Shown: in pieces, positions 2,831 through 62,645 of the stretch
Position numbering within the stretch: position 1 is the stretch's first letter
Layout: every line of letters begins with the position of its first letter
Assembly: GCA_015152555.1 (NCBI GenBank)
Contig: SUTS01000012.1
Coordinates: 1-64,000 of the forward strand
Direction: 5' to 3'
DNA: 64,000 nt
Source: Cyanobacteria bacterium SIG26
Lineage (GTDB): Bacteria > Cyanobacteriota > Vampirovibrionia > Gastranaerophilales > Gastranaerophilaceae
Notes under the pieces: model-generated
Databases searched by the model: none
Told to the model about the DNA's origin: nothing
What the model saw: the letters and a program-made list of their open reading frames with translations, nothing else
Program-made: the position numbers and the translations under genes

Positions 2831-2859
2831 TTGTTAATCTTGAAAATGAGTAATATAAT
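2831..2859 (+). promoter_or_regulatory. Promoter of the rel operon
   Basis: TTGTTA (2831-2836), 17-base spacer, perfect TATAAT (2854-2859). Transcription should start near 2866, leaving only about a dozen untranslated bases before the ATG at 2878 and no Shine-Dalgarno. Confidence 0.7.
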
Positions 2860-2877
2860 TTATATCATTAATTTGCT

Positions 2878-5682: not shown

Positions 5683-7098
5683 ATGTTTGGATTAATGGTA
5701 ACTGCGGCATTAGTATTGATTTCAATATTTATGTTTATTGCAAATCAGTACAAAAGATGTCCTTCAAACAAAATTATTGTAGTTTATGGTAAAACAGGTG
5801 GGGAAAAAACTGCCAAATGTGTTCACGGCGGAGGTACTTTTATAATTCCGTTAATTCAGGATTATGGAGTATTATCACTTGAGCCAATGACAACTGATAT
5901 TGACTTAAAAGGAGCTCTTTCAAAAGGTAATATCCGTGTTGCAGTTCCTTCTACATTTACTTTCGGTATTTCAACTGACCCTAAAATTATGATTAACGCT
6001 GCAGAACGTCTTTTAGGCCTTTCAAAGCCTGATGTAATTACTCAAGCTAGTGATATTATTTTAGGTCAATTACGTCTTGCAATTGCAACTTTAACAATTG
6101 AAGAAATAAACCAAGATCGTGAAAAATTTTTAGAACAAATTAACGCGAACGTAAATACTGAGTTAAATAAAATTGGTTTGGAAATAATTAACGTTAACAT
6201 CAAAGATATTACAGATGAATCCGGATATATTGATGCTATCGGTAAAAAAGCCGCTGCTGAAGCTATAAACAAAGCAAAAGTTGAAGTTGCTCAACAAGAA
6301 AAATTAGGTGCTGTTGGTGAAGCTTCTGCTAATAAAGAAAAAGAAGTACAAGTCGCTGAACAAGAAGCTCAAACATTAATTGGTAGAACAAACGCAGAAA
6401 GAGAACAACGTATTAAAACTGCAGAACTTGAAGCTCAAGCTGTTGAAGGTGAAAACATTTCTAAAGCTAATATAGCTGAATACAATGCAACCTTAGCGGT
6501 AAAACAAGCAGATGCATTCAGAGAAGGTGAAGTTGCAAAGGCTAATGCGCAACGTGATGTATTACTTGCTCAAAAAGAACAAGAAGAAGCTAAGCTTAAA
6601 AAAGAAGAACTTGCAAGACAAGAAGTTGAAAAACTTAAAATTCAAGTTCAAGCTGATGCTGAAGCTGAAAGAGCCAGAAGAATTGCATTGGGTGAAGCTG
6701 ACGCTATCAAGGCTAAATATTTCGCGGAAGCTGAGGGTGTTAAGGCTGTGTTAGAAGCTAAAGCTAAAGGTTATGAAGATTTGGTTAAGATCTCTAATAA
6801 CAGACCCGAAATTGCGACAAGCTTCTTGATGATAGAAAAATTAGAAACTCTTGTTGAAAAACAAGTGGAAGCTATTAAAAATATTAAATTCGATAAAATT
6901 ACGGTATGGGATGGCGGTACGGGTTCTGCTAACGGGTCAACAACAGCTAATTTTATGAAAGATTTAATAAAAGCATTACCTGCAATGCATGATTTGGCAG
7001 GTCAAGCAGGAATCGAACTTCCTCAAATTTTGGGTAAAGTTGATAATGGTATAGAAGAAGCTAAAGTTGTTTCTTCAAAAACTGAAAAAGCTGAATAG
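5683..7098 (+). CDS. Flotillin-family SPFH protein
   Basis: A 471-residue protein. An N-terminal membrane segment (about residues 3-22) is followed by an SPFH/band-7 domain to about 190 (VHGGGTFIIPLIQDY; GQLRLAIATLTIEEI; LNKIGLEIINVNIKDITD). A long Ala/Glu/Lys coiled coil (about 195-370) with repeated AEAE-type steps and a short tail complete it. This is the YuaG/FloT layout, used to scaffold functional membrane microdomains. AAGGAGAG precedes the ATG. Its operon with an NfeD-like gene supports the call. Co-transcription with rel upstream is likely because no terminator separates them. Confidence 0.9.
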   Translation: MFGLMVTAALVLISIFMFIANQYKRCPSNKIIVVYGKTGGEKTAKCVHGGGTFIIPLIQDYGVLSLEPMTTDIDLKGALSKGNIRVAVPSTFTFGISTDPKIMINAAERLLGLSKPDVITQASDIILGQLRLAIATLTIEEINQDREKFLEQINANVNTELNKIGLEIINVNIKDITDESGYIDAIGKKAAAEAINKAKVEVAQQEKLGAVGEASANKEKEVQVAEQEAQTLIGRTNAEREQRIKTAELEAQAVEGENISKANIAEYNATLAVKQADAFREGEVAKANAQRDVLLAQKEQEEAKLKKEELARQEVEKLKIQVQADAEAERARRIALGEADAIKAKYFAEAEGVKAVLEAKAKGYEDLVKISNNRPEIATSFLMIEKLETLVEKQVEAIKNIKFDKITVWDGGTGSANGSTTANFMKDLIKALPAMHDLAGQAGIELPQILGKVDNGIEEAKVVSSKTEKAE

Positions 7099-7123
7099 AA
7101 CTTCTATTTGATAAACGTGAGAG

Positions 7124-7153
7124 AGCAACGTCAGATATTGGCGTTGCTTTCTT
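7124..7153 (+). terminator. Terminator of the rel-flotillin set
   Basis: AGCAACGTC (7124-7132) pairs with GGCGTTGCT (7140-7148) around a 7-base loop, then TTTCTT. Confidence 0.8.
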
Positions 7154-7180
7154 GATTAATGTTATATAAATTGATATAAT
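7152..7180 (+). promoter_or_regulatory. Leaderless promoter of the Mur-ligase-like gene
   Basis: TTGATT (7152-7157), 17-base spacer, perfect TATAAT (7175-7180). The ATG begins at 7187, the base where transcription itself should start, and only T lies between. The -35 box overlaps the end of the preceding terminator. Confidence 0.7.
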
Positions 7181-7186
7181 TTTTTT

Positions 7187-8578
7187 ATGAATTTTTGGAA
7201 TATAAACAATTTAAAATCTGCAATTTCCGGAGTAGAATTTTATAATATACCGGATGATTTTTCTGCTAATGGACTTCGCGTAAATCCTGGGGATTTTACT
7301 CTGGGTAATATTGCAGTTGTTAAAAAATCAGGAGAAGACGTCGGAATTGATGAAACTGCTTTTGAAAATCTAAAAGCTAAAGCTTCTGCGATTATGTGTA
7401 CTGATGAAAAATATTTTGCAAAATTTGATTTGCCAATAATCAAGGTTAAAAATTCCAAAGATGCTGTCATTATGATGGCTTATTACATGAGAAAAGTTTT
7501 CGAGGGTGTTGTTATTGATATAACAGGTTCTTGTGGCAAATCTACAGTTACTAAAATGTGTTATGATGTTTTGAAACAATACGGTGTTAGTGCTAATACT
7601 AATCGCGCAAATATTAATTTTAGTATTGCTTGGAATATGACATCTTATGATATTAATTCAAAGTATTGGGTAAATGAAACCTCTTTAGGTGGGGGGATGG
7701 AGCTGAATTCTTATCTGACAAAACCGCATGTTGCTGTTATAACTAATATTGCGCCGGTGCATTTGTCTGCTAAGCAAACCTTAGAAATTATTGCTAAAAC
7801 AAAGGCTAAGATTTTTACGGCTATGAATTCAGGGGATTATGCGATTTTATACAAAGACACTGAGCATTACGAGATTCTAGAAAAAGTGGCAAAAGATAAG
7901 CAATTAAATATTATAACTGTAGGGGAAGGTGAAGATTGCAATATAAGATTATCTTTTGATAACAAAAATATAATAAATGTATATGGAGTTGAATACGATT
8001 TCACAGATCTAAATACTCCAAAACACCTTTTAATTGATATGGCATTAACTTTGGGTGTGTTACACGCATTAAATTTACCACTTGAACCCGCCATAAAAAC
8101 CCTTTCAACTTGGGCTCCAATAATTGGTAGGGGAGAAGTTTTAAATGGTGAAATCTCACAAGGAAAAAATATTATAATGGTTGATGAAGCTTATAATGCC
8201 AATCCTTTATCTATGAAAAGTTGTTTGGAAAGTTTTGGTATTACTTATAAAGATAATAAGAAAGTATTGATAATTGGTGATATGGCAGAAGGTGGTGTTA
8301 ATTCTATCGAGCAACACTTAAGCTTGATTGATGTAATAAAAAATATCAATCCTGATGTTTTGATATGTTGCGGTAAAGAGATAAAACCGGTATGGAATAA
8401 GCTAAAAAGATTTTATAGTGGTGCTTATTATCAAAATGTTTTACCGTTAATTGAGGACTTTGAATCTTGGGTAGAGGACGGGGACTGTGTTTTTGTGAAG
8501 GCATCACATTCGATAGAGTTATTTAAGCTTACAACTATGTTTAGAAATAAAATAAAAAAAAATTCTCAAACTAAATAA
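7187..8578 (+). CDS. MurF-like Mur ligase paralogue
   Basis: A 463-residue Mur-ligase-fold protein. The ATP loop GSCGKSTVTK is at about residues 114-123, the central domain has NETSLGG and TNIAPVHL, and the C-terminal domain has DEAYNANPLSMK and IGDMAEGG. These match MurF rather than MurC, MurD or MurE. A conventional murF lies at 27688-29028, so this is a second, diverged copy. The loop is GSCGKST instead of the usual GSxGKTT. It may add an amino acid or peptide to a wall precursor or to another nucleotide- or peptide-linked substrate; the substrate cannot be read from sequence. No Shine-Dalgarno is present, and it appears to be transcribed as a leaderless message. Confidence 0.8.
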   Translation: MNFWNINNLKSAISGVEFYNIPDDFSANGLRVNPGDFTLGNIAVVKKSGEDVGIDETAFENLKAKASAIMCTDEKYFAKFDLPIIKVKNSKDAVIMMAYYMRKVFEGVVIDITGSCGKSTVTKMCYDVLKQYGVSANTNRANINFSIAWNMTSYDINSKYWVNETSLGGGMELNSYLTKPHVAVITNIAPVHLSAKQTLEIIAKTKAKIFTAMNSGDYAILYKDTEHYEILEKVAKDKQLNIITVGEGEDCNIRLSFDNKNIINVYGVEYDFTDLNTPKHLLIDMALTLGVLHALNLPLEPAIKTLSTWAPIIGRGEVLNGEISQGKNIIMVDEAYNANPLSMKSCLESFGITYKDNKKVLIIGDMAEGGVNSIEQHLSLIDVIKNINPDVLICCGKEIKPVWNKLKRFYSGAYYQNVLPLIEDFESWVEDGDCVFVKASHSIELFKLTTMFRNKIKKNSQTK

Positions 8579-20239: not shown

Positions 20240-23080
20240 ATGAATTATATAAATAATTATTTAAATACAAATAAAGCTAATAATATTCCAAATATTTCGG
20301 TTCAAAATGCAAAGGCGCAGGTTCAACAACAGGTTGAAAATGGTGAGAGTTCTGTTAAGGAGCTTTCTAATGTCGTGCCTGATTATAATGTGCAAAAACC
20401 AATAGCTTACACTCAGTTACCTGATATAAAAATTAACGATGACTTGATTGCAAAATCATATAAACTTGCAAATGGGCAAAGAGTTATTATATTGCCGAAA
20501 GATGGTTCTACTGTTGTAAAAACTTATGTAAATACAGGATCATTTAATGAACCGGATAATCTTCGGGGTATAAGTCATTATATCGAGCATAATTTATTTA
20601 ATGGTTCTGAAGATTTGGGAGAAAAAGTTTTTTTCGATGAAGTTCATAAAATGGGTGCTGGTACAAATGCGTCTACTTATTTTGATAAAACTGATTATTA
20701 TATTCAGTCACAAATGTTAGATGATGCGGATTTAGAAACAAAAATTCAGTTACATGCCGGGATGTTAAAATCTCCTAAATTTCTGATTGAAAAGTTAGAA
20801 AAAGAGAAAAAGATTGTAAATTCCGAGATTAATATGTATATGGGTTATGATGATAGTATCGGTTTTACCCAAATGATAAAGAATTTGTTTAATGTAAAAT
20901 CTTCATCTTTGGATTTGGTTGCAGGGACGACTGATAATATTACTCGATTAACCCGTGATGACGTTGTAAATTATTATAATAATAATTATTATCCGGCGAA
21001 TATGACTACCGTAATTACGGGTGAAGTTAATCCTGATGAAACTATTAAATTGATTTCAAAGTATTTTAATGGGGAAAATAAAGTTACTCAAAACCGATAT
21101 TATGAAAAGTTATCACCGATCACAAATACAATCAGGCAGGATATAATTTCTTCTAAATCCGAAGGGATGGCTACTATAATGATTGGTTTTGAAGGTCCAA
21201 AAAACGGTGATTTTAAAGAAAAAGTCTTAGTTTCAGCTTTGAATAATTTAGCCGGTGGCTTAGTATATTCAAGAGTTTCTGATATAGAAAAGAAATACGG
21301 CACAGGAATAGGATTTATTAATGACAGATTAAGTTCTAAAAATGGAGATCCTAGTGTTGTTGCTATTCAGACTCAAGTTCCGGATGATCAGGTAGAAAAT
21401 ATTTTAAAAGAAATTTATGGTGCGATTTCTAAATTGTCAACATCTTTACCTACAGAAGAAGAACTTCAGGCTATAAAGATAAAATTAAAGAAACAAAGAA
21501 GTGAAAGTTTAGAAGTTTCTTATCTTTTGAATAATATATTGGGAAAAGCTCTTTTAGAAAATAATGAAAATGATATTAGTAAATATAATGAAATTGTTGA
21601 TTCTATAACTGCGGTTGATATTCAAAATGCGGCGAAAAAATATATGGATTTAAATCGCGCGTCACTTGTTGTTGTTCACCCAAAAGATGCTCAGCCTGAT
21701 CAGATTATTCAAAGATATAATCAAGTAATGCATAATTCAAAAATTTCATTTACCGGATTAAATAAGAAAACACCGATTGATGTAAATGCCATTTCAACAT
21801 ATAGGCTTGCAAATAATGTTGAGGTTGTATTGAATGAGTCTCAATCTGATGTTGTGCAATATGGTTTAGATTTGACAGCTAAAAAATGGACGCCAAAAGA
21901 AATTGCAATTGCATCAGTATTGGATGATATGTTTGACCGTTGTGGAACAAAAGATATATCTGCTGTTGATCTTTCTAAAAAAGCTGATAAATTAGCAGTT
22001 AGTTTAAAAGGTGGCGTGAGTCAATATGGAATAAGTTATACTGCGAGTTTCCCATCCGCAAATGCTAATGAGTCTATGGGTACAATTGTTGATTTGATTA
22101 TGTCGCCGGATTTGAAAAAATCTAAATTTGAAGAATCTGTAAAACGAATTAGAGCAAAACTTAATGCAAGTGAACCAAGTCCTTATGATAATTTTGCAAA
22201 AGCTATGTATAAAGATTTGCCATTAATGTATACTAATGAAGATTATTTAAAAAGTTTAAATAATATTACATTCGAAGATGTGGTGAATTTCCATAAAGAA
22301 ATTTTAGAAAAATCGCAGGGACAAGTTGTTGTAACCGGTCCATTTTCTAAAAATCCAGAATTAAAACAAGAAGTTTTTAATTCTTTGTCAAAGCTTCCTG
22401 TTGTTCAACCTAAAGATTTGAATTTACCTAATGTATATACTCAGATAGATAAACCTCAAGTTTATACAAAAACCAATTTTAAAAATCAGGCAGATATTGT
22501 CCTAGGTTATAAATTTAAACATAATGGTAATATAAAAGACAGAGTTGCTATGGATTTGCTCAATGATATTTTAGGCGGATCTGCTTCTTCTCGATTATTT
22601 ATGGATTTGAGGGAATCTCGGCATTTAGCTTATAGTGTCGGGTCAAATATTAATTTTACAGATGATATCGGTGTAATGATGCTAGATATCGGAACTACAA
22701 CTGAAAATCTTGAGACCGGCGAAAAATCTTATGACAATATTAAAAAGTCAATAATAGGTTTTCAAGATAATATAAAAAGAATTACTACTGAAAAGGTTTC
22801 TGATGAAGAATTAGACAATGCAAAAAAACAGTTAAAAACTACTTTGTTATCTATAGTAGAAACTAATAGTGGTAAAAATTCTATGTTAAGTTCATCAGTA
22901 ACAACACCGTATGGTGTAAGTTATGAAAATCAGATGCTTGAAGTTATTGATTCAATAACCAAAGACGATATTTATAATGTGGCAAATTATATATTTAAAG
23001 GTAATCCGGTATATTCCATGACAGCCACTAAAGAGTCTATAGATGCAAATAAAGAATTTTTAGACTCTTTGAAATTTTAA
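20240..23080 (+). CDS. Two-domain M16 zinc peptidase
   Basis: A 946-residue M16 (pitrilysin/insulinase) peptidase carrying both halves in one chain. The first half has the inverted zinc motif H113-YI-E116-H117 and a downstream Glu cluster (EKEKKIVNSEINMY). The second half has the Arg/Tyr region (SRLFMDLRESRHLAYSVGS) that completes the active site. The halves are joined by a linker containing ISFTGLN (residues 502-508), the same F-T/K-G motif found in unrelated hypothetical proteins here. No signal peptide is visible: the first 40 residues are Asn/Gln-rich. Probably degrades peptides; location uncertain. Its stop overlaps murG by 4 bases. Confidence 0.93.
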   Translation: MNYINNYLNTNKANNIPNISVQNAKAQVQQQVENGESSVKELSNVVPDYNVQKPIAYTQLPDIKINDDLIAKSYKLANGQRVIILPKDGSTVVKTYVNTGSFNEPDNLRGISHYIEHNLFNGSEDLGEKVFFDEVHKMGAGTNASTYFDKTDYYIQSQMLDDADLETKIQLHAGMLKSPKFLIEKLEKEKKIVNSEINMYMGYDDSIGFTQMIKNLFNVKSSSLDLVAGTTDNITRLTRDDVVNYYNNNYYPANMTTVITGEVNPDETIKLISKYFNGENKVTQNRYYEKLSPITNTIRQDIISSKSEGMATIMIGFEGPKNGDFKEKVLVSALNNLAGGLVYSRVSDIEKKYGTGIGFINDRLSSKNGDPSVVAIQTQVPDDQVENILKEIYGAISKLSTSLPTEEELQAIKIKLKKQRSESLEVSYLLNNILGKALLENNENDISKYNEIVDSITAVDIQNAAKKYMDLNRASLVVVHPKDAQPDQIIQRYNQVMHNSKISFTGLNKKTPIDVNAISTYRLANNVEVVLNESQSDVVQYGLDLTAKKWTPKEIAIASVLDDMFDRCGTKDISAVDLSKKADKLAVSLKGGVSQYGISYTASFPSANANESMGTIVDLIMSPDLKKSKFEESVKRIRAKLNASEPSPYDNFAKAMYKDLPLMYTNEDYLKSLNNITFEDVVNFHKEILEKSQGQVVVTGPFSKNPELKQEVFNSLSKLPVVQPKDLNLPNVYTQIDKPQVYTKTNFKNQADIVLGYKFKHNGNIKDRVAMDLLNDILGGSASSRLFMDLRESRHLAYSVGSNINFTDDIGVMMLDIGTTTENLETGEKSYDNIKKSIIGFQDNIKRITTEKVSDEELDNAKKQLKTTLLSIVETNSGKNSMLSSSVTTPYGVSYENQMLEVIDSITKDDIYNVANYIFKGNPVYSMTATKESIDANKEFLDSLKF

Positions 23081-24180
23081 TTAAGTATTTGTTCAACAAT
23101 CTTTTTTACACCGTCGTATTTTGCGAGTTTAGTTGTTGCGGATTGTATTTCTTGGAGTTTATTAGTATCGTAAATAAATGTTTTTATAGAGTCCAACAAA
23201 GTCTCAGGTGTGGTATTGTTATCTTCTAAGTATAAACCTGCATTGTTTTCTAACATGTATTTTGCATTTTTGCGTTGATGGTCGGCTGCTGCGTGAGGAT
23301 ATGGTATATAAATTGTTGCAACCCCGCTTGCGCAAAGCTCTGAAATACTCAATGAACCAGCTCTTGAAATTGCAATATCACTTGATTTTAGTACTGTAAC
23401 CATATCTTCAAAATATGGTTTTATAATTATGTTTTTATCTTCTGCAAATTCCGGATATGTTTTTTGTAAATCTTTCACTGTTTGTTCAAAATTATTTTTG
23501 CCGGTTTGAAATATTACTTGTAAATTATAATCTTTTGAAAGTCTTTCGAGAATTTGTATTGCGGCATTGTTAATCGTTTTTGCACCTTGAGATCCCCCCA
23601 TAATGCAAAGAGTTAATTTATTTTCCAGGTTTAATGCTTTTCTTGCTTGTTCTTTTGCAAGTGTTTTAAATTCTTCGCGGATAGGGTTGCCGTTAGTGAT
23701 ACAATTTTTATTCTTGAGGTATTTTTTAGCTGAGTCAAAAGCTATTGAAATACTTTTTGCAAATGGTGACAATTTTCTAGTGACAAGTCCTGGTATTGCA
23801 TCGCAATCGTGCATAATAAAGGGGGTTCTTGTTGTTATTGCTGCAAAAAGCACAGGTGCTGAAACATAACCACCTGTTCCAAAAATTGTATCAGGTTTAT
23901 ATTTTAGAATATAGAAACAGCATTTAAACCAAGCAAAAAACATTTTCACGGTCCAGCTAATAAACGCTAAACTAACTTTCCTTGGCATTCCGGATGATTT
24001 TACCGGTAGAAATTTATAATTTTTGCTTTTAGCAATATTTGCTTCCAAATTATCAGGATTTCCTACATAAAAAATATTACCGGTATTTTCAAGTTTAGAC
24101 AGTTCATCAGCGACAGCAATTGCAGGATATATATGTCCACCTGTACCTCCACCGGTTATAAAGTATACTTTTCTATGCAT
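23077..24180 (-). CDS. murG: MurG glycosyltransferase (lipid II synthesis)
   Basis: A 367-residue enzyme adding GlcNAc to lipid I at the inner membrane face. GGTGGHIYPAIAVA at the N-terminus, GTGGYVSAPVLFAA, MGGSQGAKTINNA and SRAGSLSISELCASGVATIYIPYPHAAADHQ cover the family's donor and acceptor loops. Last of the minus-strand murF-mraY-murD-ftsW-murG row, one base after ftsW. Confidence 0.97.
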   Translation of the reverse strand: MHRKVYFITGGGTGGHIYPAIAVADELSKLENTGNIFYVGNPDNLEANIAKSKNYKFLPVKSSGMPRKVSLAFISWTVKMFFAWFKCCFYILKYKPDTIFGTGGYVSAPVLFAAITTRTPFIMHDCDAIPGLVTRKLSPFAKSISIAFDSAKKYLKNKNCITNGNPIREEFKTLAKEQARKALNLENKLTLCIMGGSQGAKTINNAAIQILERLSKDYNLQVIFQTGKNNFEQTVKDLQKTYPEFAEDKNIIIKPYFEDMVTVLKSSDIAISRAGSLSISELCASGVATIYIPYPHAAADHQRKNAKYMLENNAGLYLEDNNTTPETLLDSIKTFIYDTNKLQEIQSATTKLAKYDGVKKIVEQILN

Positions 24181-24181
24181 T

Positions 24182-25384
24182 TTAATTTCCCTCTGTTCTA
24201 ATTCTTTTAATTCTTTGTCTTGAAATATTTAATAAAATTCCAATCATGGCTAATGATACGACAATGGAAGTTCCCCCGTAACTAATGAACGGTAAAGTTA
24301 CCCCTGTTACCGGCATGAATGAGCTTGCTACTGACATGTTTAAAAATGCTTGAAATCCAAAGACAAATGTTATACCGATAGCCAGTAATTTCCCGTACAT
24401 ATCCGGGCAGCGTCTGGCGATTCGCATTCCCCTATGTACAAGTGCCATAAATAATCCAAGTACAAATATACTTCCTAAAAATCCAAATTCTTCTGCAATA
24501 ATTGCAAATATAAAATCGGTATGGCATTCGGGTAAATATGCTAATTTTTGTATGGATGCACCATATCCTGTGCCGCTAAAGCCTCCTGATGCAAATGCTA
24601 TAAGTGACTGTATGATGTTGTAACCTTTACCTTGAGCGTCACTTCCCGGATTTAACCAAACAGTTATTCTGTCCATTTGATAGCCTTGTAGTAGTTTTGG
24701 TAATTTTGTTGCTATGACAAACACAAGAGCTCCTAATCCCGCAAATATTGGTTGCCAAGGACCTTTACCTGCAATATATAATGCAAGTGTTGTCATACAA
24801 AGAATTATAGCCATACTCAAGTTTGGTTGTTTTAGTATTAAAAATATTATGAAAAGCATTGGGAGTATATAATTTAGTAAATTTCTCTTTGCAAAAATAC
24901 TTAAATCTATTTTATCTTTAAACATTGATGCTAAAAGCATACAAAATAACGGTTTTGCAAATTCAGATGGTTGAAGTTGCATAAAACCTAAATTTATCCA
25001 ACGTTTTGCCCCATTAATTTCTAATCCTAAAGAGGTAAATTTTACGATGGCTAAAAGTGCGACTACGAACCAAAGAAATTTTAAGTTATATTTTTCCAGC
25101 CTCTTGTAATCGTAATTAGCGAACCATGCCATAAGAAAAAAACCAATTGTCGCAAAAAATCCTTGTTTTAAAAGGAAAGATGCTAAATTGATGCCTTCTC
25201 TCATACATTTTGGAGCTGTAGTTGAAAAGATTGCTAAAAATCCTATGATAACTAAAAACACTACTATAATTATTAGTGATTTATCAGGAGGCGAAGTTAT
25301 ATCCCCGTTGCTTTTTTTTCTGCGACGTTGATCTTTGATTTCTCGTTGTTGTCTTTTGGGTGATTTATATTCTCGATAAGACAT
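24182..25384 (-). CDS. ftsW: Peptidoglycan glycosyltransferase FtsW
   Basis: A 400-residue SEDS-family polymerase with a basic cytoplasmic N-terminus (YREYKSPKRQQREIKDQRRRKKS) and about ten membrane segments. WINLGFMQLQPSEFAKP and GVTLPFISYGGTS are the SEDS signatures. Position beside murG and murD argues for FtsW (division) over RodA. The start at 25384 overlaps the end of murD by 20 bases; the frame opens as far as 25465, but that extension lies inside murD. Confidence 0.94.
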   Translation of the reverse strand: MSYREYKSPKRQQREIKDQRRRKKSNGDITSPPDKSLIIIVVFLVIIGFLAIFSTTAPKCMREGINLASFLLKQGFFATIGFFLMAWFANYDYKRLEKYNLKFLWFVVALLAIVKFTSLGLEINGAKRWINLGFMQLQPSEFAKPLFCMLLASMFKDKIDLSIFAKRNLLNYILPMLFIIFLILKQPNLSMAIILCMTTLALYIAGKGPWQPIFAGLGALVFVIATKLPKLLQGYQMDRITVWLNPGSDAQGKGYNIIQSLIAFASGGFSGTGYGASIQKLAYLPECHTDFIFAIIAEEFGFLGSIFVLGLFMALVHRGMRIARRCPDMYGKLLAIGITFVFGFQAFLNMSVASSFMPVTGVTLPFISYGGTSIVVSLAMIGILLNISRQRIKRIRTEGN

Positions 25385-26708
25385 ATTCCTTGAATACTTC
25401 TCCTCTGTTTTCATAGCTTGTAAACATATCAAAGCTTGCGCATGCCGGTGACAAAAGTACAACATCCGGTGATAATTCTATACCTTTATCAATTGCGTTT
25501 TGAATGGTTTTTTCTTTTATAATATTTGAAAAACCGTTGTTTTTGAGTGTTTGTTCAAATCTTTCTGTGGCTTCTCCTATTAAAATAACAGTATTTATAT
25601 GTTCTTTTACAGATTTACAAAATTCTGTTAAATCAGTGTTTTTATCTCTACCACCTGCAATTAGTACAACATCAGTGTTGCAAAATGAGTTTATTGCAAC
25701 GATAGCTGCTTCCGGATTTGTTGCTTTTGAATCGTTGTAAAATGTTATACCGTTAATTTGTGTCACTTTTTCCAGACGATGTTCAGGTGCTTGGAATGTT
25801 TTGATTCCTGTTTTAATGGTTTCATTATCAAGACCTGTTATTTTCGCACAAATTATTGCACACATAATATTTTGATAATTATGTTCTCCAATGAGTGGAC
25901 ACTCTTGTAATGAAATTATATCCTCACAAATCCCATCTTTTTTGTAGATAATCGTATTGTTTTCTATATAACAACAATTATCTCCTTCATTTTTTGCAAA
26001 TAAGAAAATTGTTCCTTCTGCTAGTTTTGAAAACTCCATAAGTTTTTCATCTTTTGCGTTCAGTACGCTATACATAGGAGCTTGTGGGTTTTTGAAAACT
26101 TTAGCTTTCGCGTTAAAGTAATTTTCAAGACCTTGGTGCCAGTCAATATGATCTGGTGTGAAATTTGTCCAAACTGAAATGAAAGGTTTGAGTGTCGGGC
26201 TCATTTCTAATTGATAAGAACTGGCTTCACAAATAAAATAATCTAAATCTTCATCTGCAAAATTGCAAGGAGGTTGTCCAATATTGCCGCAAGCTTTTGC
26301 CTTTAATTTTTGCGTTAAAATATGCGATGTTAGTGCAGTTGTAGTTGTTTTACCGTTTGTTCCTGTTATTACAATAAATGGAATATCGGATTCTTTATAA
26401 GCTAATTCTAATTCTGAAATTACAGGTATATTTTTTGATTTTAAATCTTGTATTATTTTGCTATGTGGAGGAATTCCCGGGCTTGTGATAGCAATATCTG
26501 CATGGTTAATGAAATCTTCACTATGTCCGCCATATTCAACATTAATACCTATATCTTTGAGCTCATATACTAAATGTAAGTTTTCTTGTGAAATTTCCTT
26601 CCCTTCAGAAAGGTAGACTTCCGCTCCGCGTTTTTTTGCTAATTTTGCAGCCGCGGTGCCACTTTTAGATAAACCTAAAACTAAAACTGTTTTACCTGAA
26701 ATCCCCAT
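25365..26708 (-). CDS. murD: UDP-MurNAc-L-alanine--D-glutamate ligase
   Basis: A 447-residue Mur ligase adding D-Glu. The N-terminal Rossmann domain (VLVLGLSKSGTAAAKL) binds the UDP moiety, VITGTNGKTTTTALTSH is the ATP loop, FICEASSYQLEMSP, WTNFTPDHIDWHQ and FYNDSKATNPEA are MurD-diagnostic, and LLSPACASFDMFTSYENRG is the C-terminal signature. It overlaps mraY by one base and ftsW by 20. Confidence 0.97.
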   Translation of the reverse strand: MGISGKTVLVLGLSKSGTAAAKLAKKRGAEVYLSEGKEISQENLHLVYELKDIGINVEYGGHSEDFINHADIAITSPGIPPHSKIIQDLKSKNIPVISELELAYKESDIPFIVITGTNGKTTTTALTSHILTQKLKAKACGNIGQPPCNFADEDLDYFICEASSYQLEMSPTLKPFISVWTNFTPDHIDWHQGLENYFNAKAKVFKNPQAPMYSVLNAKDEKLMEFSKLAEGTIFLFAKNEGDNCCYIENNTIIYKKDGICEDIISLQECPLIGEHNYQNIMCAIICAKITGLDNETIKTGIKTFQAPEHRLEKVTQINGITFYNDSKATNPEAAIVAINSFCNTDVVLIAGGRDKNTDLTEFCKSVKEHINTVILIGEATERFEQTLKNNGFSNIIKEKTIQNAIDKGIELSPDVVLLSPACASFDMFTSYENRGEVFKEYVLSRI

Positions 26709-27691
26709 TATAAAATACCTCTGCTAAATAGTTCAAATAATACTAATGCTGTTATTGAAAATATTAATGAAACAATAGAAAAAACGGTGACAACTTTTTT
26801 TTCGTTCCAACCTAAAAGTTCGAAATGATGATGTATCGGAGCCATTTTGAAAATTCTTTTTCCTGTTGTTCTGAAGCTCATAACTTGAAGAATTACTGAT
26901 AGCGTTTCTGTCACAAATATTGCCCCGATAAAGATAAGTAAAAATTCAAATTTTCCAAGAACGGCGATTGTTCCTAATATTCCACCAATTGCTAAGGAAC
27001 CTGTATCACCCATGAATACTTCGGCTTTAGGTTTGTTGTATTTTAAAAACCCGAGCAAGCTTCCTGCTACGGTTGCTGAAATTATTGCTAATTCAATTTC
27101 TCCCATCGCAAAAGAAATTAAAGCACATGCAATAAATGCCGGGATTCCGCAACCTGCAGCTAAACCGTCTAAACCGTCCGTAAGATTGTATGCATTAGAT
27201 GCTCCAGTTATGACAAAAACTGCGAAAAATGGGTAAAACCATTGTAAATCTATTGCCAATTTTCCGATAGTAAAAAAGCTTGCATTTGAATTATCTGACA
27301 TTACTAAAAATAGTGTAGGTAGTAGTGCTATTGCTATTTGTCGGAATAGTTTTCCCCGAGGGGTCAATCCATCATTTCCTTTGCCTTTTATTTTTATATA
27401 ATCATCTTGAAAGCCTGCGAATGTATAAAATATTAGGGTAATTAAGACAATAAGTGCTGTAGCTGTCATTTTTTGTGCTAACAATAGCGTGGTTGCAGAC
27501 GCCAAGATTATTGCACTAATTATAAATACTCCGCCAGTTGTTGGTGTACCTTGTTTTTTCGCGTGATTTCCCGGCGCAAGTTCTTTAACGTATTGGCCTA
27601 TAGTTCTTTTTTTTAGTATATCTATATAAGGTACTCCTAAAAGCATACATAATACTAATCCCAGCAAAAATGCTATTGTTATCATTATCAT
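26708..27691 (-). CDS. mraY: Phospho-MurNAc-pentapeptide transferase MraY
   Basis: A 327-residue polytopic membrane enzyme forming lipid I on undecaprenyl phosphate. HAKKQGTPTTGG, the Asp pair FQDDYIK, NAYNLTDGLDGLAAG, FMGDTGSLAIGG and MAPIHHHFELLGW are the conserved catalytic loops. The start overlaps the murF stop by 4 bases. Confidence 0.97.
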   Translation of the reverse strand: MIMITIAFLLGLVLCMLLGVPYIDILKKRTIGQYVKELAPGNHAKKQGTPTTGGVFIISAIILASATTLLLAQKMTATALIVLITLIFYTFAGFQDDYIKIKGKGNDGLTPRGKLFRQIAIALLPTLFLVMSDNSNASFFTIGKLAIDLQWFYPFFAVFVITGASNAYNLTDGLDGLAAGCGIPAFIACALISFAMGEIELAIISATVAGSLLGFLKYNKPKAEVFMGDTGSLAIGGILGTIAVLGKFEFLLIFIGAIFVTETLSVILQVMSFRTTGKRIFKMAPIHHHFELLGWNEKKVVTVFSIVSLIFSITALVLFELFSRGIL

Positions 27692-29028
27692 TTTTTACAT
27701 ATTCCTCTTTTTATATTTTCTAAAATTTGTTCAAATTTCATTGAACGAGATGCCTTCAAGAATATTGTATAACTGTTATTTAGATTTTCAAGAATGTAAC
27801 AGGATACATCTTCGATTGAGTTAAAATGAATAGCTTCAATCTTATTATTAGTAAGGCTTTTATTAATTTCTTTTGATAGGTCACCTACTGTCAAATACTT
27901 AACTTTTTTATTAAGTTTACTTAAGAAAACCCCGACTTGCTTGTGGTATTCTTTTTCATTTTCTCCAAGTTCGCCCATATCCCCAAGTACAACTACTGGG
28001 TTTTTGTATAGCTCGATAAAAGTTTTAACAGAAGCTTTCATCGAGTCAGGGTTTGCGTTGTAGCTATCGTTTATGAACTTTATTCCACAAATGTTTTCTA
28101 TTTCCCAACGTTTTTCAATCGGTTTATAAGAACGTAGTCCACGTTTGATTTCTTCACTTGTCATCCCAAGTTTATGCCCAAGTTCAATTGCAGCTAAGGC
28201 ATTTTCAATGTTATAATCACCCTCAACATTTAATTCATAAATTTCTGTTTTATATTCAAATTTTGAGTATGATGGAGCTTTTTCTAATATTTTAACGTCA
28301 TTAAGAGTGTAATAGCAGGTTTCTCCGCTAAAATTGTTGTGTCTTTTTATTATTTCTTGATTATTAGCAATTAGAGTTCCGTTTGTTTTTAAACCTTTTG
28401 TAATTTCGCATTTTGCAATTGCAATATTGTCCAAAGAACCTAATCGACCGACATGAGCGGTTCCGGAGTTTGTGATTATTGCAAAATCCGGATTTAAGTG
28501 TGTCGAAATTAATTCTATTTCGCCTAATCCTCTCATTCCCATTTCTACAATTAATGCTTGGGTGTCTGCGGGCATTGTTAATACCGTTTGGCAAAATCCT
28601 ATTTCATTATTGTGATTGGAGTATGTTTTATGAGTGTTAAACTTTTCTTTTAATACAGAATATACGATTTCTTTAGTTGTAGTTTTTCCGGAGCTTCCTG
28701 TTATACCCACCGTAATTGGGGCGATTTTTGTTTTGTAATATTTTGCGAGTTTTAAATAGTAATCCAAAGTGTTTTGAGTTTTTATAACTATTTGAGCTTT
28801 GTCATACACTTTTTCTTCCGAGGTAATATAACCCACAGCACCTGCATTTAGGGCCTGTTCTATAAATAATTCGCCGTCAAAGTTAGCACCTTTAAGGGGT
28901 AAATAGATGTCTCCATTTTGGATAGTTCTGGTATCTGTAGAAATCCCGTAATCGACAGAATTGTTTTCTATATCCCTAAGTATTATTGCCCCTGTTGAAT
29001 TTATTAATTCTTCTTTCTTAAACCTCAT
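27688..29028 (-). CDS. murF: UDP-MurNAc-tripeptide--D-Ala-D-Ala ligase
   Basis: A 446-residue MurF. Contains DTRTIQNGDIYLPLKGANFDG, the ATP loop GITGSSGKTTTKE, HNNEIGFCQT, EMGMRGLGEIE, TNSGTAHVG, FINDSYNANPDSMKAS and LGDMGELGE. First gene of the minus-strand wall row. No Shine-Dalgarno is seen. TATTAT ends 7 bases before the ATG, suggesting a leaderless or near-leaderless message, although no good -35 box is visible. Divergent from rplU. Confidence 0.97.
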   Translation of the reverse strand: MRFKKEELINSTGAIILRDIENNSVDYGISTDTRTIQNGDIYLPLKGANFDGELFIEQALNAGAVGYITSEEKVYDKAQIVIKTQNTLDYYLKLAKYYKTKIAPITVGITGSSGKTTTKEIVYSVLKEKFNTHKTYSNHNNEIGFCQTVLTMPADTQALIVEMGMRGLGEIELISTHLNPDFAIITNSGTAHVGRLGSLDNIAIAKCEITKGLKTNGTLIANNQEIIKRHNNFSGETCYYTLNDVKILEKAPSYSKFEYKTEIYELNVEGDYNIENALAAIELGHKLGMTSEEIKRGLRSYKPIEKRWEIENICGIKFINDSYNANPDSMKASVKTFIELYKNPVVVLGDMGELGENEKEYHKQVGVFLSKLNKKVKYLTVGDLSKEINKSLTNNKIEAIHFNSIEDVSCYILENLNNSYTIFLKASRSMKFEQILENIKRGICKK

Positions 29029-29088
29029 ATTTTAATAATACTGCAAAAGTTCTTCTTGGGCTATAACGTTAATAAATATTAAAACTAC

Positions 29089-43439: not shown

Positions 43440-43530
43440 GCCTACCCCTTCATAACAATTATAACATTATTTAAAATATCAAATAAAACTATGTAAACAT
43501 TTCCCCATGTGTGTTATTATAAATATCAAG

Positions 43531-44392: not shown

Positions 44393-45199
44393 ATGAAAAG
44401 TATTTCAATTCAATGTCCGGCAAAAATAAATATGACACTTAAAGTCGTCGGCAAAAGAGATGACGGGTTTCATAATATTGAAAGTATTATGCAAACAATT
44501 GATCTATATGATTATTTATATATCTCGATGATACAATCTGACAGAACAAAGATTTCATTGCGCGGAAATAGTGACACAATCCCTTACGATAAAACAAATT
44601 TGGTATATAAAGCCGCTAAATTATATCTTGATGCAAACGGACTAAAAAACTTCGAATTTGACATCAATATAGAAAAACATATTCCTGTTTCGGCAGGACT
44701 TGCAGGGGGCAGTACAGACGCTGCAGGAACCCTATACGCTCTTAATAAATTTTTTGACAATAGAATGTCTCAAGATGAATTACTAAACTTATGCGCACAA
44801 CTGGGTTCTGACTTAAACTTTTGCCTAATTGGTGGTCGAGCACTGACTAAAGGGCGAGGCGAAATTATTGAGCCTAAAGAACATCGAGAAATCAATATAA
44901 ATTTAATCAAACCTTTGGATATCGGAATTTCAGCAAGAGAAGCTTACACAAGCTTTGCTGAAAAAACTGAGCTCGAAGGTGATAATCGCTTTAACCGCAG
45001 AGACTATGTTAATGATTTAGAATGGGCAATTATAGATAAATATCCAACATTACAACAGATAAAAAAGCAATACAAAACAGCAGTAATGACTGGCTCCGGT
45101 TCCACATATTTTTCAACAAAAGAAGAATTCATACCGGCAGAAGATTTTTGGGTTGAAAACGGACATAAAACCATTCCTTATGGAGTTCAGATGATTTAA
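44393..45199 (+). CDS. ispE: 4-diphosphocytidyl-2-C-methyl-D-erythritol kinase
   Basis: A 268-residue GHMP kinase of the MEP isoprenoid pathway. CPAKINMTLKVVGKRDDGFHN and the ATP loop PVSAGLAGGSTDAAGTLYAL are diagnostic, with MTGSGSTYF near the C-terminus. The start at 44393 has AAGGAG; upstream in-frame ATG at 44333 is inside rsmA. The pairing rsmA-ispE is common. The C-terminus is slightly shorter than usual. It shares 4 bases of stop with the convergent pilin gene. Confidence 0.96.
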   Translation: MKSISIQCPAKINMTLKVVGKRDDGFHNIESIMQTIDLYDYLYISMIQSDRTKISLRGNSDTIPYDKTNLVYKAAKLYLDANGLKNFEFDINIEKHIPVSAGLAGGSTDAAGTLYALNKFFDNRMSQDELLNLCAQLGSDLNFCLIGGRALTKGRGEIIEPKEHREININLIKPLDIGISAREAYTSFAEKTELEGDNRFNRRDYVNDLEWAIIDKYPTLQQIKKQYKTAVMTGSGSTYFSTKEEFIPAEDFWVENGHKTIPYGVQMI

Positions 45200-45990
45200 A
45201 ATTCACGTAAATATTTATACGCACAGCCACTGCCCGTTTTAGTGTACGCACCAAGAGCCCCGTTTTCAGACGCAACATTTTTATCACAACCTTTACCCGG
45301 GTAATCCGGATGCCCTGCCGGAATAATTGTATTATTTCTAAACAACAATATGTAAATATCACGTCCGACAACATTTGGCCCTGAATTTTGCCCATTAACA
45401 TCTATTGTTACCCGAGGATTTTCAGACCTCTTGGCAAATCCCAAATGAGCCCCGTTTTGCAAAATCGCATAACCTGCAAATGACTCATAAAAACAAGTGC
45501 CCCAAGTTTTATCTGTTTCTTTTAGATCAAGCGCCTTACATTTGAAATTCATAGAATAATTCTTATCAACAGTTGAACATGTTTTATCAGGATTATTATC
45601 CAAACAATAAGAACTAAGTTTTAATTGTGAAAGTAAACCCTCATAAAGCTTAAAACAAACATCCAATTTATCTGCTCCATAAGGGGCACCATGAGTTTGT
45701 TTCCCAACATCCCAAGGATTTGGAGTATAAACAGGATCAGGAAATGCCAACCTATAAGCATTTATTATATCCGCATAATTCTTCTTTAACGCAGTTTTAA
45801 ACTGCTTATCTTGAATATTTGTAATCATATTTGGTATCGTCATCGCAGCAACAATTCCGATTACGCCGATTACGATTAATACTTCGACCAGTGTAAACGC
45901 AGCTTTTTTAATAAAAGAGTTATCAAACCCTCTCCTGTCACCGCGGGGGTAAAGATTAGGCACCTTTCCGCCCCGTTCAACCCTCGTCAT
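45196..45990 (-). CDS. Type IV pilin-like protein with start in repeat DNA
   Basis: A prepilin-type protein. KKAAFTLVEVLIVIGVIGIVAAMTIP is the class III signal: cleavage before the Phe, Glu at +5, then the N-terminal assembly helix; the ~230-residue body has cysteines (CFKLYEG, CLDNNPDKTC, CKALD) and resembles pseudopilins of this lineage. The problem is the start: the nearest in-frame ATG (45990) lies 40 residues before the cleavage site and within a GC-rich repeat block, and the frame stays open through repeats to 46191. Other starts (for example rare ATT just before KKAAF) cannot be excluded. Confidence 0.7.
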   Translation of the reverse strand: MTRVERGGKVPNLYPRGDRRGFDNSFIKKAAFTLVEVLIVIGVIGIVAAMTIPNMITNIQDKQFKTALKKNYADIINAYRLAFPDPVYTPNPWDVGKQTHGAPYGADKLDVCFKLYEGLLSQLKLSSYCLDNNPDKTCSTVDKNYSMNFKCKALDLKETDKTWGTCFYESFAGYAILQNGAHLGFAKRSENPRVTIDVNGQNSGPNVVGRDIYILLFRNNTIIPAGHPDYPGKGCDKNVASENGALGAYTKTGSGCAYKYLREF

Positions 45991-46340
45991 TCTGAGGGGA
46001 GGGTAAATATTACTACCAACCGTGGTATAGTTTGTAAAACCAATGTGCTCCGCAGGGGGGGAGGTAAATGCACCCTTCCCTGGACGGTGCAAAATGAACA
46101 GGCGAGGTACGAGCCTTGTGAACTTGTATACCGAGGCGCAGCCAAGTGTTGGAGGGGCTGGGGGTAAAAGTAAAGGGTCTAGGATTTCCACTCTCCTAGG
46201 GAGAGAGTTAGGATGAGGGGGCGATGTAAAAAGTTCTCCGAAACTATGCTCAACTCAAGTCATCCCTTCCGGCTCCGCCACCTTCCCCATCCGGGGCAGG
46301 TAATTCACTTATCATCCCACCAAAACAACCCTCCAAAATC
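45930..46340. repeat. GC-rich intergenic repeat mosaic, copy 2
   Basis: Covers the 5' end of the pilin gene and the gap up to 46383. Blocks match copy 1 in inverted orientation (CCCTCGTCATTCTGAGGGG with CCGCCCCGTTC). Others are CCCTTCCCTGGACGG, CTCCTAGGGAGAG followed by GTTAGGATGAGGGG, and CCTTCCCCATCCGGGG. Locally GC-rich against an AT-rich background. No gene is seen in 46192-46383. Confidence 0.75.
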
Positions 46341-61159: not shown

Positions 61160-61187
61160 ATTGCTTTTAGCTCATTAATAATATAAA
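61160..61187 (+). promoter_or_regulatory. Weak candidate leaderless promoter of the ABC gene
   Basis: TATAAA (61182-61187) ends 8 bases before the ATG at 61196, with ATTGCT (61160-61165) 16 bases upstream. The -35 match is poor; no Shine-Dalgarno is present. Confidence 0.35.
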
Positions 61188-61195
61188 ATTTATTT

Positions 61196-62191
61196 ATGAA
61201 TAAAGATGTTATAGAAGTAAAAGATTTGGATGTTGTTTATGAATCAAAGACTAACGTCTTTGGTAATGTAAAAAAAATATATGCACTTAATGATGTAAGT
61301 CTTAATGTTAAGCGCGGAGAAATATTGGCTATTGCCGGAGAATCCGGTTGTGGTAAGTCTACATTAGCTAAAACTTTGATGCGTTTAATTGAACCGTTAA
61401 AAGGGGAAATTTTGCTTGAAGGTCAAAATATTTGTAGTTTTAAAGGAAAAGCTCAGCAAAAAGATTTTTATAAAAAGCTACAGATGATTTTCCAAAATCC
61501 CTATGCGAGTTTAAATCCTAAAATGAAAATTGGCGAAATCTTACAAGAACCATTATTGATTAATACAAATTTTTCTAAAGTTAAAATTCAAGCACTTGTT
61601 GATGATGTGATTGGTAAAGTTGGTTTGGATAATTCGTGTTTGAATTTATATCCTCATGAATTCTCAGGTGGTCAAAGACAACGGATTGCTATTGCCAGAG
61701 CTTTAATTCTTGAACCCGAAATTATTATTGCGGATGAACCGGTTAGCGCATTAGATGTTAGTATTCAAGCTCAGATTATAAATTTGTTAAAACAGTTGAA
61801 AGACGATTTTAATTTGACGTTTATATTTATATCGCACGATTTAGGGGTTATTAGACATATATCAGATAGAATTGCCATAATGTATTTGGGTGAAATTGTA
61901 GAAATAGGTAAGACAGAAGATATTTTTATTGATCCTAAACATCCTTATACAAAAGCTTTGCTTAGTGCTGTTCCTGAATTAACTGCAAACAAAAAGAAAG
62001 AACATATAAAATTAATTGGTGAATTGCCTTCCCCTGAAAATTTGCCTTCCGGTTGTAAATTCCATACACGTTGCCCTTTTGCGATGGATGTTTGCAAGCA
62101 ATCTCATCCTGCGGAATTTAAATTTGCTGGCAATCATTCGTGTAAATGCTTTTTGTACTCTGATGACAATATTAAAAACTCTGTGATATAA
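61196..62191 (+). CDS. Oligopeptide-type ABC transporter ATPase (OppF/DppF)
   Basis: A 331-residue ATPase. GESGCGKSTLAKTLMRL (Walker A), IFQNPYASLNPKM (Q-loop), FSGGQRQRIAIARAL (signature), ADEPVSALDVSIQAQ (Walker B) and the C-terminal oligopeptide-transporter extension CKFHTRCPFAMDVC are complete. Such ATPases normally work with a second ATPase, two permeases and a binding protein; none is within the window, so partners must be elsewhere. Confidence 0.93.
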   Translation: MNKDVIEVKDLDVVYESKTNVFGNVKKIYALNDVSLNVKRGEILAIAGESGCGKSTLAKTLMRLIEPLKGEILLEGQNICSFKGKAQQKDFYKKLQMIFQNPYASLNPKMKIGEILQEPLLINTNFSKVKIQALVDDVIGKVGLDNSCLNLYPHEFSGGQRQRIAIARALILEPEIIIADEPVSALDVSIQAQIINLLKQLKDDFNLTFIFISHDLGVIRHISDRIAIMYLGEIVEIGKTEDIFIDPKHPYTKALLSAVPELTANKKKEHIKLIGELPSPENLPSGCKFHTRCPFAMDVCKQSHPAEFKFAGNHSCKCFLYSDDNIKNSVI

Positions 62192-62192
62192 T
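62163..62192 (+). promoter_or_regulatory. Leaderless promoter of smpB
   Basis: ATGACA (62163-62168), 18-base spacer, perfect TATAAT (62187-62192). The smpB ATG begins at 62199, the expected first transcribed base. The boxes lie inside the last codons of the preceding ABC gene. Confidence 0.6.
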
Positions 62193-62198
62193 TATTTT

Positions 62199-62645
62199 AT
62201 GGATAAAAAAGTTATTACAGTAAACAGAAAAGCGTTTCACGACTACAGTATTTCTGAAAAATATGTGGCCGGTATTGTTTTGACCGGAACAGAAATTAAA
62301 TCTATTCGTAAAAATGCAATTAATTTAAAAGACAGTTTTTGTAAAATTGAAGATAATGAAATTTTTTTATATAATTGTCACATTTCACCTTATGAACAAG
62401 GCAACAGGTATAATCATAAGGCCGAAAGAGTCAGAAAACTTTTATTGACTAAAAAAGAAATTCTGAAAATGCATTCTAAAATAAAAAAAGACGGTTATAC
62501 TATTGTTCCCTTGGAAGTGTTTATTATAAAAGGATTTGCAAAGGTTGAAATTGGTTTAGCAAAAGGTAAAAAACTTCATGATAAACGTGAAGATATTGCT
62601 AAAAAAGATCAGAAGCGTGAAATGGATAGAGCTTCAAAATATTAA
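62199..62645 (+). CDS. smpB: SsrA-binding protein SmpB
   Basis: A 148-residue tmRNA partner needed to rescue stalled ribosomes. NRKAFHDYSISEKYVAGIVLTGTEIKSIR, the KDSFCKIEDNEIFLYNCHI segment and the C-terminal GLAKGKKLHDKREDIAKKDQKREMDRA are diagnostic. No Shine-Dalgarno precedes the ATG, and it seems to be read from a leaderless message. The tmRNA gene was not found in this window. Confidence 0.97.
   Translation: MDKKVITVNRKAFHDYSISEKYVAGIVLTGTEIKSIRKNAINLKDSFCKIEDNEIFLYNCHISPYEQGNRYNHKAERVRKLLLTKKEILKMHSKIKKDGYTIVPLEVFIIKGFAKVEIGLAKGKKLHDKREDIAKKDQKREMDRASKY

Follow-up and report, generated by a model that had tools for sequence, protein, structure and literature searches.

A predicted leaderless promoter at a MurF-like gene of a Gastranaerophilales genome, and its recurrence across the family

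The locus considered here lies in a 64,000-nucleotide stretch (hereafter the window; GC content 32.9%) at the start of contig SUTS01000012.1 of Cyanobacteria bacterium SIG26, order Gastranaerophilales, a metagenome-assembled genome (MAG) of 1.86 Mb in 21 contigs. An open reading frame (ORF) on the forward strand (7187-8578) encodes a MurF-like Mur ligase with Pfam Mur_ligase_M and Mur_ligase_C as middle and C-terminal domains. Its score against TIGR01143 (194.9 bits) falls below the family cut-off of 288.6, and it is a second copy besides the canonical murF (345.5 bits), which clusters with mraY, murD, ftsW and murG at 23077-29028. Upstream on the forward strand lie a -35 hexamer TTGATT (7152-7157, four of the six letters of TTGACA), a 17-nucleotide spacer, and an extended -10 element (7172-7180) composed of TG (7172-7173), A and a perfect TATAAT (7175-7180); exactly six T residues then separate TATAAT from the ATG at 7187-7189, a start codon supported by the conserved N-terminus of the orthologs. 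The promoter is preceded by a terminator-like hairpin (7118-7154; 17 pairs, 6 of them G-C), 3' of a flotillin-like gene (5683-7098) that matches its family weakly (155 bits for a cut-off of 700). The region 7110-7165 folds at -23.1 kcal/mol (z -6.5), and the last bases of the hairpin are shared with the first three of the -35 hexamer.

Extended -10 promoters of the sigma-70 type carry TGn directly before the -10 hexamer, and the TG directly before TATAAT assigns the MurF-like promoter, which matches 10 of the 12 consensus letters in a promoter scan, to this type. Six bases are usual between the -10 hexamer and the transcription start, so the expected +1 is the A of the ATG itself. No Shine-Dalgarno (SD) letters were found between -20 and -5 of this ATG. 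The geometry and the missing SD had both been claimed for 7152-7189 in a preliminary description of the window, and both hold, coordinates included. We consider it very probable that the gene is transcribed from a sigma-70-type extended -10 promoter whose +1 is the A of the ATG, and the mRNA is predicted to be leaderless. Such an mRNA would begin at its start codon, and ribosomes would initiate on its 5'-terminal AUG with no SD pairing, as they generally do on leaderless mRNAs, through 70S or IF2-assisted initiation. The RNA 5' end and the mode of translation are both read here from the DNA. The MurF-like gene would then be one member of a family-wide class that includes smpB, an OppF-type gene and murF, and, by the same pattern, uvrC, tgt, rarA, metF and others.

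The existence of such a class was assessed in 355 genes called from the window and 20 further stretches (440 kb), after two of 357 called genes with fewer than 60 bases upstream had been dropped. Starts were called by rule as the leftmost ATG, with ATG as the only start codon admitted, and the related genomes are draft assemblies sampled in part. A 16S rRNA gene, from which the anti-SD could be read, was sought in the window MAG and not found. The distance from TATAAT to the start codon, which the preliminary description had proposed to plot for genes lacking SD, peaks at -12: exact hexamers occur six times there vs zero to two times at every other position from -23 to -6, and further upstream reach three to four at some positions, as for promoters of leadered genes. 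With one mismatch allowed (the relaxed hexamer), 18 genes carry the element at -12 vs a mean of 6.9 elsewhere in that interval (Poisson P 2.9e-4), the next peaks being -7 (13 genes), then -6 and -22 (11 each). The same excess is found in G013, of the same genus (25 vs 4.7, P 4e-11), and in two genomes each from another family, G040 (13 vs 3.6, P 1e-4) and G046 (10 vs 3.3, P 0.002). The class-level genome G058 gave a weak excess of the relaxed hexamer at -12 (7 vs 1.4) with no exact hexamer there and T at -1 in one of seven, and no claim is made for it. Relaxed hexamers stand at -12 of 5.1% of the 355 starts vs 1.3% of 2303 noncoding ATGs and 0.85% of 11505 other non-start ATGs.

The genes of the -12 set share further properties. 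An SD match of at least four letters, found in 227 of the 355 sampled genes, is absent from all 18. TG precedes the hexamer in 8/18 of them vs 14/337 of the others, in 11/25 vs 22/320 in G013, and in 7/13 vs 13/306 in G040. Bacterial transcription start sites usually favour a pyrimidine at -1 and a purine at +1, and in the four genomes pooled T occupies -1 in 53 of 66 genes of the -12 set vs 203 of 478 other SD-less genes (Fisher P 4e-9) and 362 of 801 SD genes. The dipyrimidine described before start codons in Cyanobacteria (PMC3160421) was considered as a cause of this T and set aside, the other SD-less genes being without it (the same 203/478). By hand estimate, the leaderless-type excess amounts to roughly 3-4% of the genes sampled in the window genome and roughly 6% of those in G013, vs 64% and 61%, respectively, with an SD match of at least four letters. 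The earlier suggestion that leaderless or near-leaderless initiation may be common is thus supported as to a genome- and family-wide excess, but the class is a minority of a few percent in a genome where SD-led genes dominate.

Conservation of the MurF-like promoter was examined in 29 distinct upstream sequences, namely that of the window and 28 further loci, the orthologs (including those added from titled MAGs) being 39-68% identical in protein. A looser hexamer (at most two mismatches) stands at -12 or -13 in all 29, vs 12.5% of letter shuffles and 3 to 16 of the 29 at other position pairs; 21 have at most one mismatch, and 15 have an exact TATAAT at -12. TTG is present at -34, -35 or -36 in all 29, 16-18 bases 5' of the hexamer, vs 8.2% of shuffles, its next-best position being -38 (10/29). 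T stands at -1 in every sequence, TG precedes the hexamer in 13, and an SD match of at least four letters occurs in one. When similar upstreams are thinned out, all 13 that are left retain both the looser hexamer and the TTG. The protein begins M-x-[FY]-W in 28 of the 29 and MKWT in the remaining one. One locus (L080) was left out for want of an aligned ATG, and the ortholog of genome G027 (L034) was read by eye, outside the counts.

The second MurF-like ligase itself is patchily distributed, with a clear ortholog in six of 58 other relatives (40-68% identity), several of these genomes being incomplete. Candidatus Gastranaerophilales and Melainabacteria MAGs, several of which come from the guts of animals, are among its closest titled relatives, and MAG RGIG6833 seems to hold two copies (L080 and L083). 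Other phyla gave matches at 23-32% identity, which may be ordinary MurF proteins.

The preliminary description had named five further genes with the same geometry, less strongly so at all but smpB, and for each of them orthologous loci were taken as the best 30 matches within the genus and counted as distinct upstreams with duplicates removed (L280, with no start found, being left out for rsmA). In shuffled upstreams of these genes, the hexamer falls at -12 in 1.6-2.9% per sequence, the range for smpB, murF and the OppF-type gene being 1.6-2.6%. First, smpB (62199-62645, forward strand; NF003843, 202.6 bits) is predicted to be leaderless from an extended -10, TGATATAAT, at 62184-62192; exact TATAAT stands at -12 in 26/29 upstreams, TG in 25/29 and SD in none, and 17/19 thinned upstreams keep the relaxed hexamer. 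A possible -35, ATGACA (62163-62168), lies 18 nucleotides 5' by eye, and no -35 column was seen to stand out in the ortholog upstreams. The extended -10 of smpB overlaps the end of the OppF-type gene, whose stop codon TAA (62189-62191) sits within the TATAAT at 62187-62192. In genome G001 the two genes are some 800 bases apart, and the TATAAT is kept. Second, the OppF-type gene (61196-62191, forward strand) has a -10 TAAAAT at -12 (61184-61189), with a relaxed -10 at that position in 22/29 upstreams and in 17/22 after thinning. Third, murF (27688-29028, reverse strand) has TATTAT at -12 (29035-29040), with a relaxed -10 in 24/29, or 16/21 when thinned; a relaxed hexamer also occurs at -9 in nine of 29. 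Within its upstream (29035-29047, reverse strand), murF orthologs keep TTTG at -19 to -16, a position out of place for the usual TGn extension; ATGATG opens 21 of 30 murF orthologs.

The last two genes depart from this register. The promoter of rel (2840-2868, forward strand; TTGAAA 2840-2845, a 17-nucleotide spacer and TATCAT 2863-2868) would give a leader of about three nucleotides before the ATG at 2878, and its hexamer is kept at -15 in 26/28 upstreams (8/9 when thinned), none of them with SD. For rsmA, the extended -10 on the forward strand (43512-43520: TG, T and TATTAT 43515-43520) falls inside the supposed N-terminus, so that the leftmost start at 43507 overlaps its own likely promoter and 43531 is the likelier start; it is probably the true one, about four nucleotides after the expected +1. 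Most orthologs start at a later ATG, the hexamer standing relative to the picked ATG at -16 in 16, at -13 in nine and at -12 in four of 27. The recurrence claimed earlier is seen at smpB with its exact hexamer and at the OppF-type gene and murF with weaker ones, and is near-leaderless at rel, whereas rsmA fits only once its start is moved downstream. Five of the six named genes (the MurF-like gene, smpB, the OppF-type gene, murF and rel) hold their own geometry in orthologs.

A strict pattern, TGNTATAAT-N5-TATG, was then counted in whole genomes. The T at -1 entered it after the ortholog and -1 counts, and the spacing control carries the same T. The window genome contains 21 such sites, vs one for a version two bases longer and one for a backward control. 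Each of the 21 ATGs begins an ORF of 105 codons or more (three of these ORFs extend beyond the fetched locus), vs 24.1% of 4104 TATG sites in the sample that open at least 80 codons; at 16 of the 21 no in-frame start codon lies upstream. Among 60 genomes of the order, the 38 of family f1 hold 827 strict sites (11-32 each), vs 59 for the longer spacing and 21 backward, the longer pattern having a backward control of its own of 45. The 22 genomes of other families hold 64 strict sites vs 33 with longer spacing and 12 backward, with family f6 intermediate (26 vs 5 longer spacing in four genomes). This corresponds to about 22 sites per genome in family f1 vs about three in other families of the order, a difference from which gain and loss of leaderlessness could be traced. 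In 38 genomes drawn from the phylum outside the family, 0-4 strict sites each were counted (28 in total), figures that are indicative only, as base composition differs. Genes at the 21 sites, named by family match, include uvrC, tgt, rarA, metF, a NUDIX hydrolase, a WecG-type transferase, two histidine kinases, an ABC permease, smpB and the MurF-like gene. For six of the 21, Pfam gave no match at E 1e-5. Two strict promoters (G000, C11:55731-55781) stand back to back, 15 bases apart and in opposite directions, before a signal-peptide-like ORF (by eye) and a WecG/TagA-type glycosyltransferase gene.

Several observations weigh against a leaderless reading of the MurF-like gene or of the class. 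In the sampled genes, none of the ten -12 hexamers of G046 is preceded by TG, and the -12 set does not score significantly higher for the -35 in the window genome (P 0.12) or in G040 (P 0.36); its -35 score is raised in G013 (P 0.004) and marginally in G046 (P 0.04). The relaxed set also holds likely false matches, one example being the AATAAT upstream of 48071, where -1 is A. An exact TATAAT at -12 is missing from 14 of the 29 MurF-like upstreams and is present in only five of the 13 thinned ones; a two-mismatch hexamer is also found at -16/-17 in 16/29, and the omitted copy L080 looks different. SD matches occur in 3/29 OppF-type, 4/29 murF and 2/27 rsmA orthologs, and five of the 21 strict sites have an in-frame start codon further upstream. 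Outside the genus, in genomes that all belong to other families (20 of 23 read for smpB, and ten each for murF and rel), the geometry is mostly missing from these genes: exact TATAAT stands at -12 or -13 of smpB in 2/20 (four of these rows, L289, L295, L296 and L305, being without a nearby ATG), murF has no exact hexamer in ten, and rel has no exact hexamer in ten and a one-mismatch hexamer at -13 in two of them.

These last counts bear on the evolution of the class. Among 81 reciprocal pairs of sampled G000 and G013 genes, the -12/-13 hexamer is present in both members of four, in G000 only in three, in G013 only in seven and in neither in 67 (Fisher P 0.0055), some pairs being below 45% identity, and no significant agreement was found in sampled reciprocal pairs between G000 and other families. 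Because of this lack of agreement, and because the geometry of smpB, murF and rel is mostly missing there, members of the predicted leaderless-type class appear to turn over with distance while the class persists. Such gene-level turnover agrees with what Zheng et al. state in their abstract (PMC3160421).

More speculatively, one fixed grammar in this family, TGNTATAAT-N5-T and then ATG, might tie the start of transcription to that of translation in a selected set of genes and so mark a regulatory class that is kept by selection, rather than merely a collection of short leaders; we put this forward as a tentative and rather unlikely idea. The mRNAs of the class would be translated as a group under conditions that favour initiation at a bare 5' AUG, such as stress or slow growth, and the genes concerned would be smpB (ribosome rescue), uvrC, rarA, tgt, histidine kinases and Mur ligases.

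Against predicted leaderless transcription of the MurF-like gene, it may be argued that the promoter is real and that its start lies a few bases off the ATG, or that an upstream promoter adds a leader, so that the main mRNA is not leaderless. The distance from the -10 hexamer to +1 generally varies by a few bases, near-leaderless versions are present at rel (-15) and rsmA, smaller counts of the relaxed hexamer occur at -13 (seven in G013 and seven in G046), and smpB lies seven nucleotides behind the OppF-type gene, where a read-through mRNA is possible. We nevertheless regard this alternative as improbable, as the enrichment of T at -1 is seen in the -12 set but in neither the other SD-less genes nor the SD genes, and the terminator-like hairpin immediately 5' of the MurF-like promoter appears to leave little space for another promoter. 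A longer leader would, moreover, have no SD to use, as the single match among the 29 orthologs illustrates.

It is far less probable that the -12 hexamer, AT-rich as it is, serves translation from within a 5' leader rather than being part of a promoter. AT-rich signals before start codons have been discussed as S1-type sites (PMC5397173, PMC3160421), but a constant register, a preceding TG and a TTG 16-18 bases away are features of a promoter, and a spacing two bases longer reduces the strict sites of the 38 family genomes nearly to the backward control; the TG and the TTG led to the rejection of this candidate. Accidental matches in an AT-rich genome, which a scan of 5 kb would allow since it found 25 promoter-like sites vs 20.2 +/- 4.1 in shuffles and is not decisive by itself, can practically be dismissed, being contradicted by the -12 register relative to other positions before the same starts and to non-start ATGs, by ortholog conservation, and by the longer-spacing, backward and ORF controls.

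The predicted leaderless class can be compared with known systems. Leaderless genes were defined by Zheng et al. (2011; PMC3160421) through a TANNNT or TATAAT-like signal about 12 bases before the start, and were described there as widespread in bacteria without being dominant. The TA-led genes of that study share with the class described here the -12 signal, the lack of SD and the leaderless reading; unlike them, the present genes form a small class with an extended -10 and T at -1 in a genome dominated by SD. For Cyanobacteria, the same paper describes many genomes as using neither SD-led nor leaderless genes, a second cites reports of a high leaderless fraction (PMC5397173), and a third mentions, for Synechocystis, leaderless transcripts that have no ribosome site (PMC8155712).

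Synechococcus elongatus UTEX 2973 belongs to the same phylum as the window organism. In that strain, 19 gene start sites were judged leaderless from mapped 5' ends (PMC6091082), in contrast to the class presented here, which is predicted from sequence. Relative to extended -10 promoters of sigma-70, the TGn is common ground, and the difference lies in its fusion in register with the start codon. In the literature searched, no report was found that links leaderless mRNAs with Gastranaerophilales, Melainabacteria or Vampirovibrio. The leaderless mechanism is already known; what is new is the lineage, together with an unusually clean and conserved sequence grammar. For a lineage known here mainly from gut MAGs, this provides a rule for some gene starts that is precise and can be checked, points to a correction of at least one start codon (that of rsmA), and supplies a set of genes with which to ask how SD-using bacteria also retain leaderless mRNAs.

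Two other start codons of the window deserve attention. Family homology begins about 96 codons after the listed start of a prepilin-like gene (45196-46191) and about 35 codons after that of adk (1988-2749), and because it begins downstream in both cases, the true starts of these two genes are probably internal.
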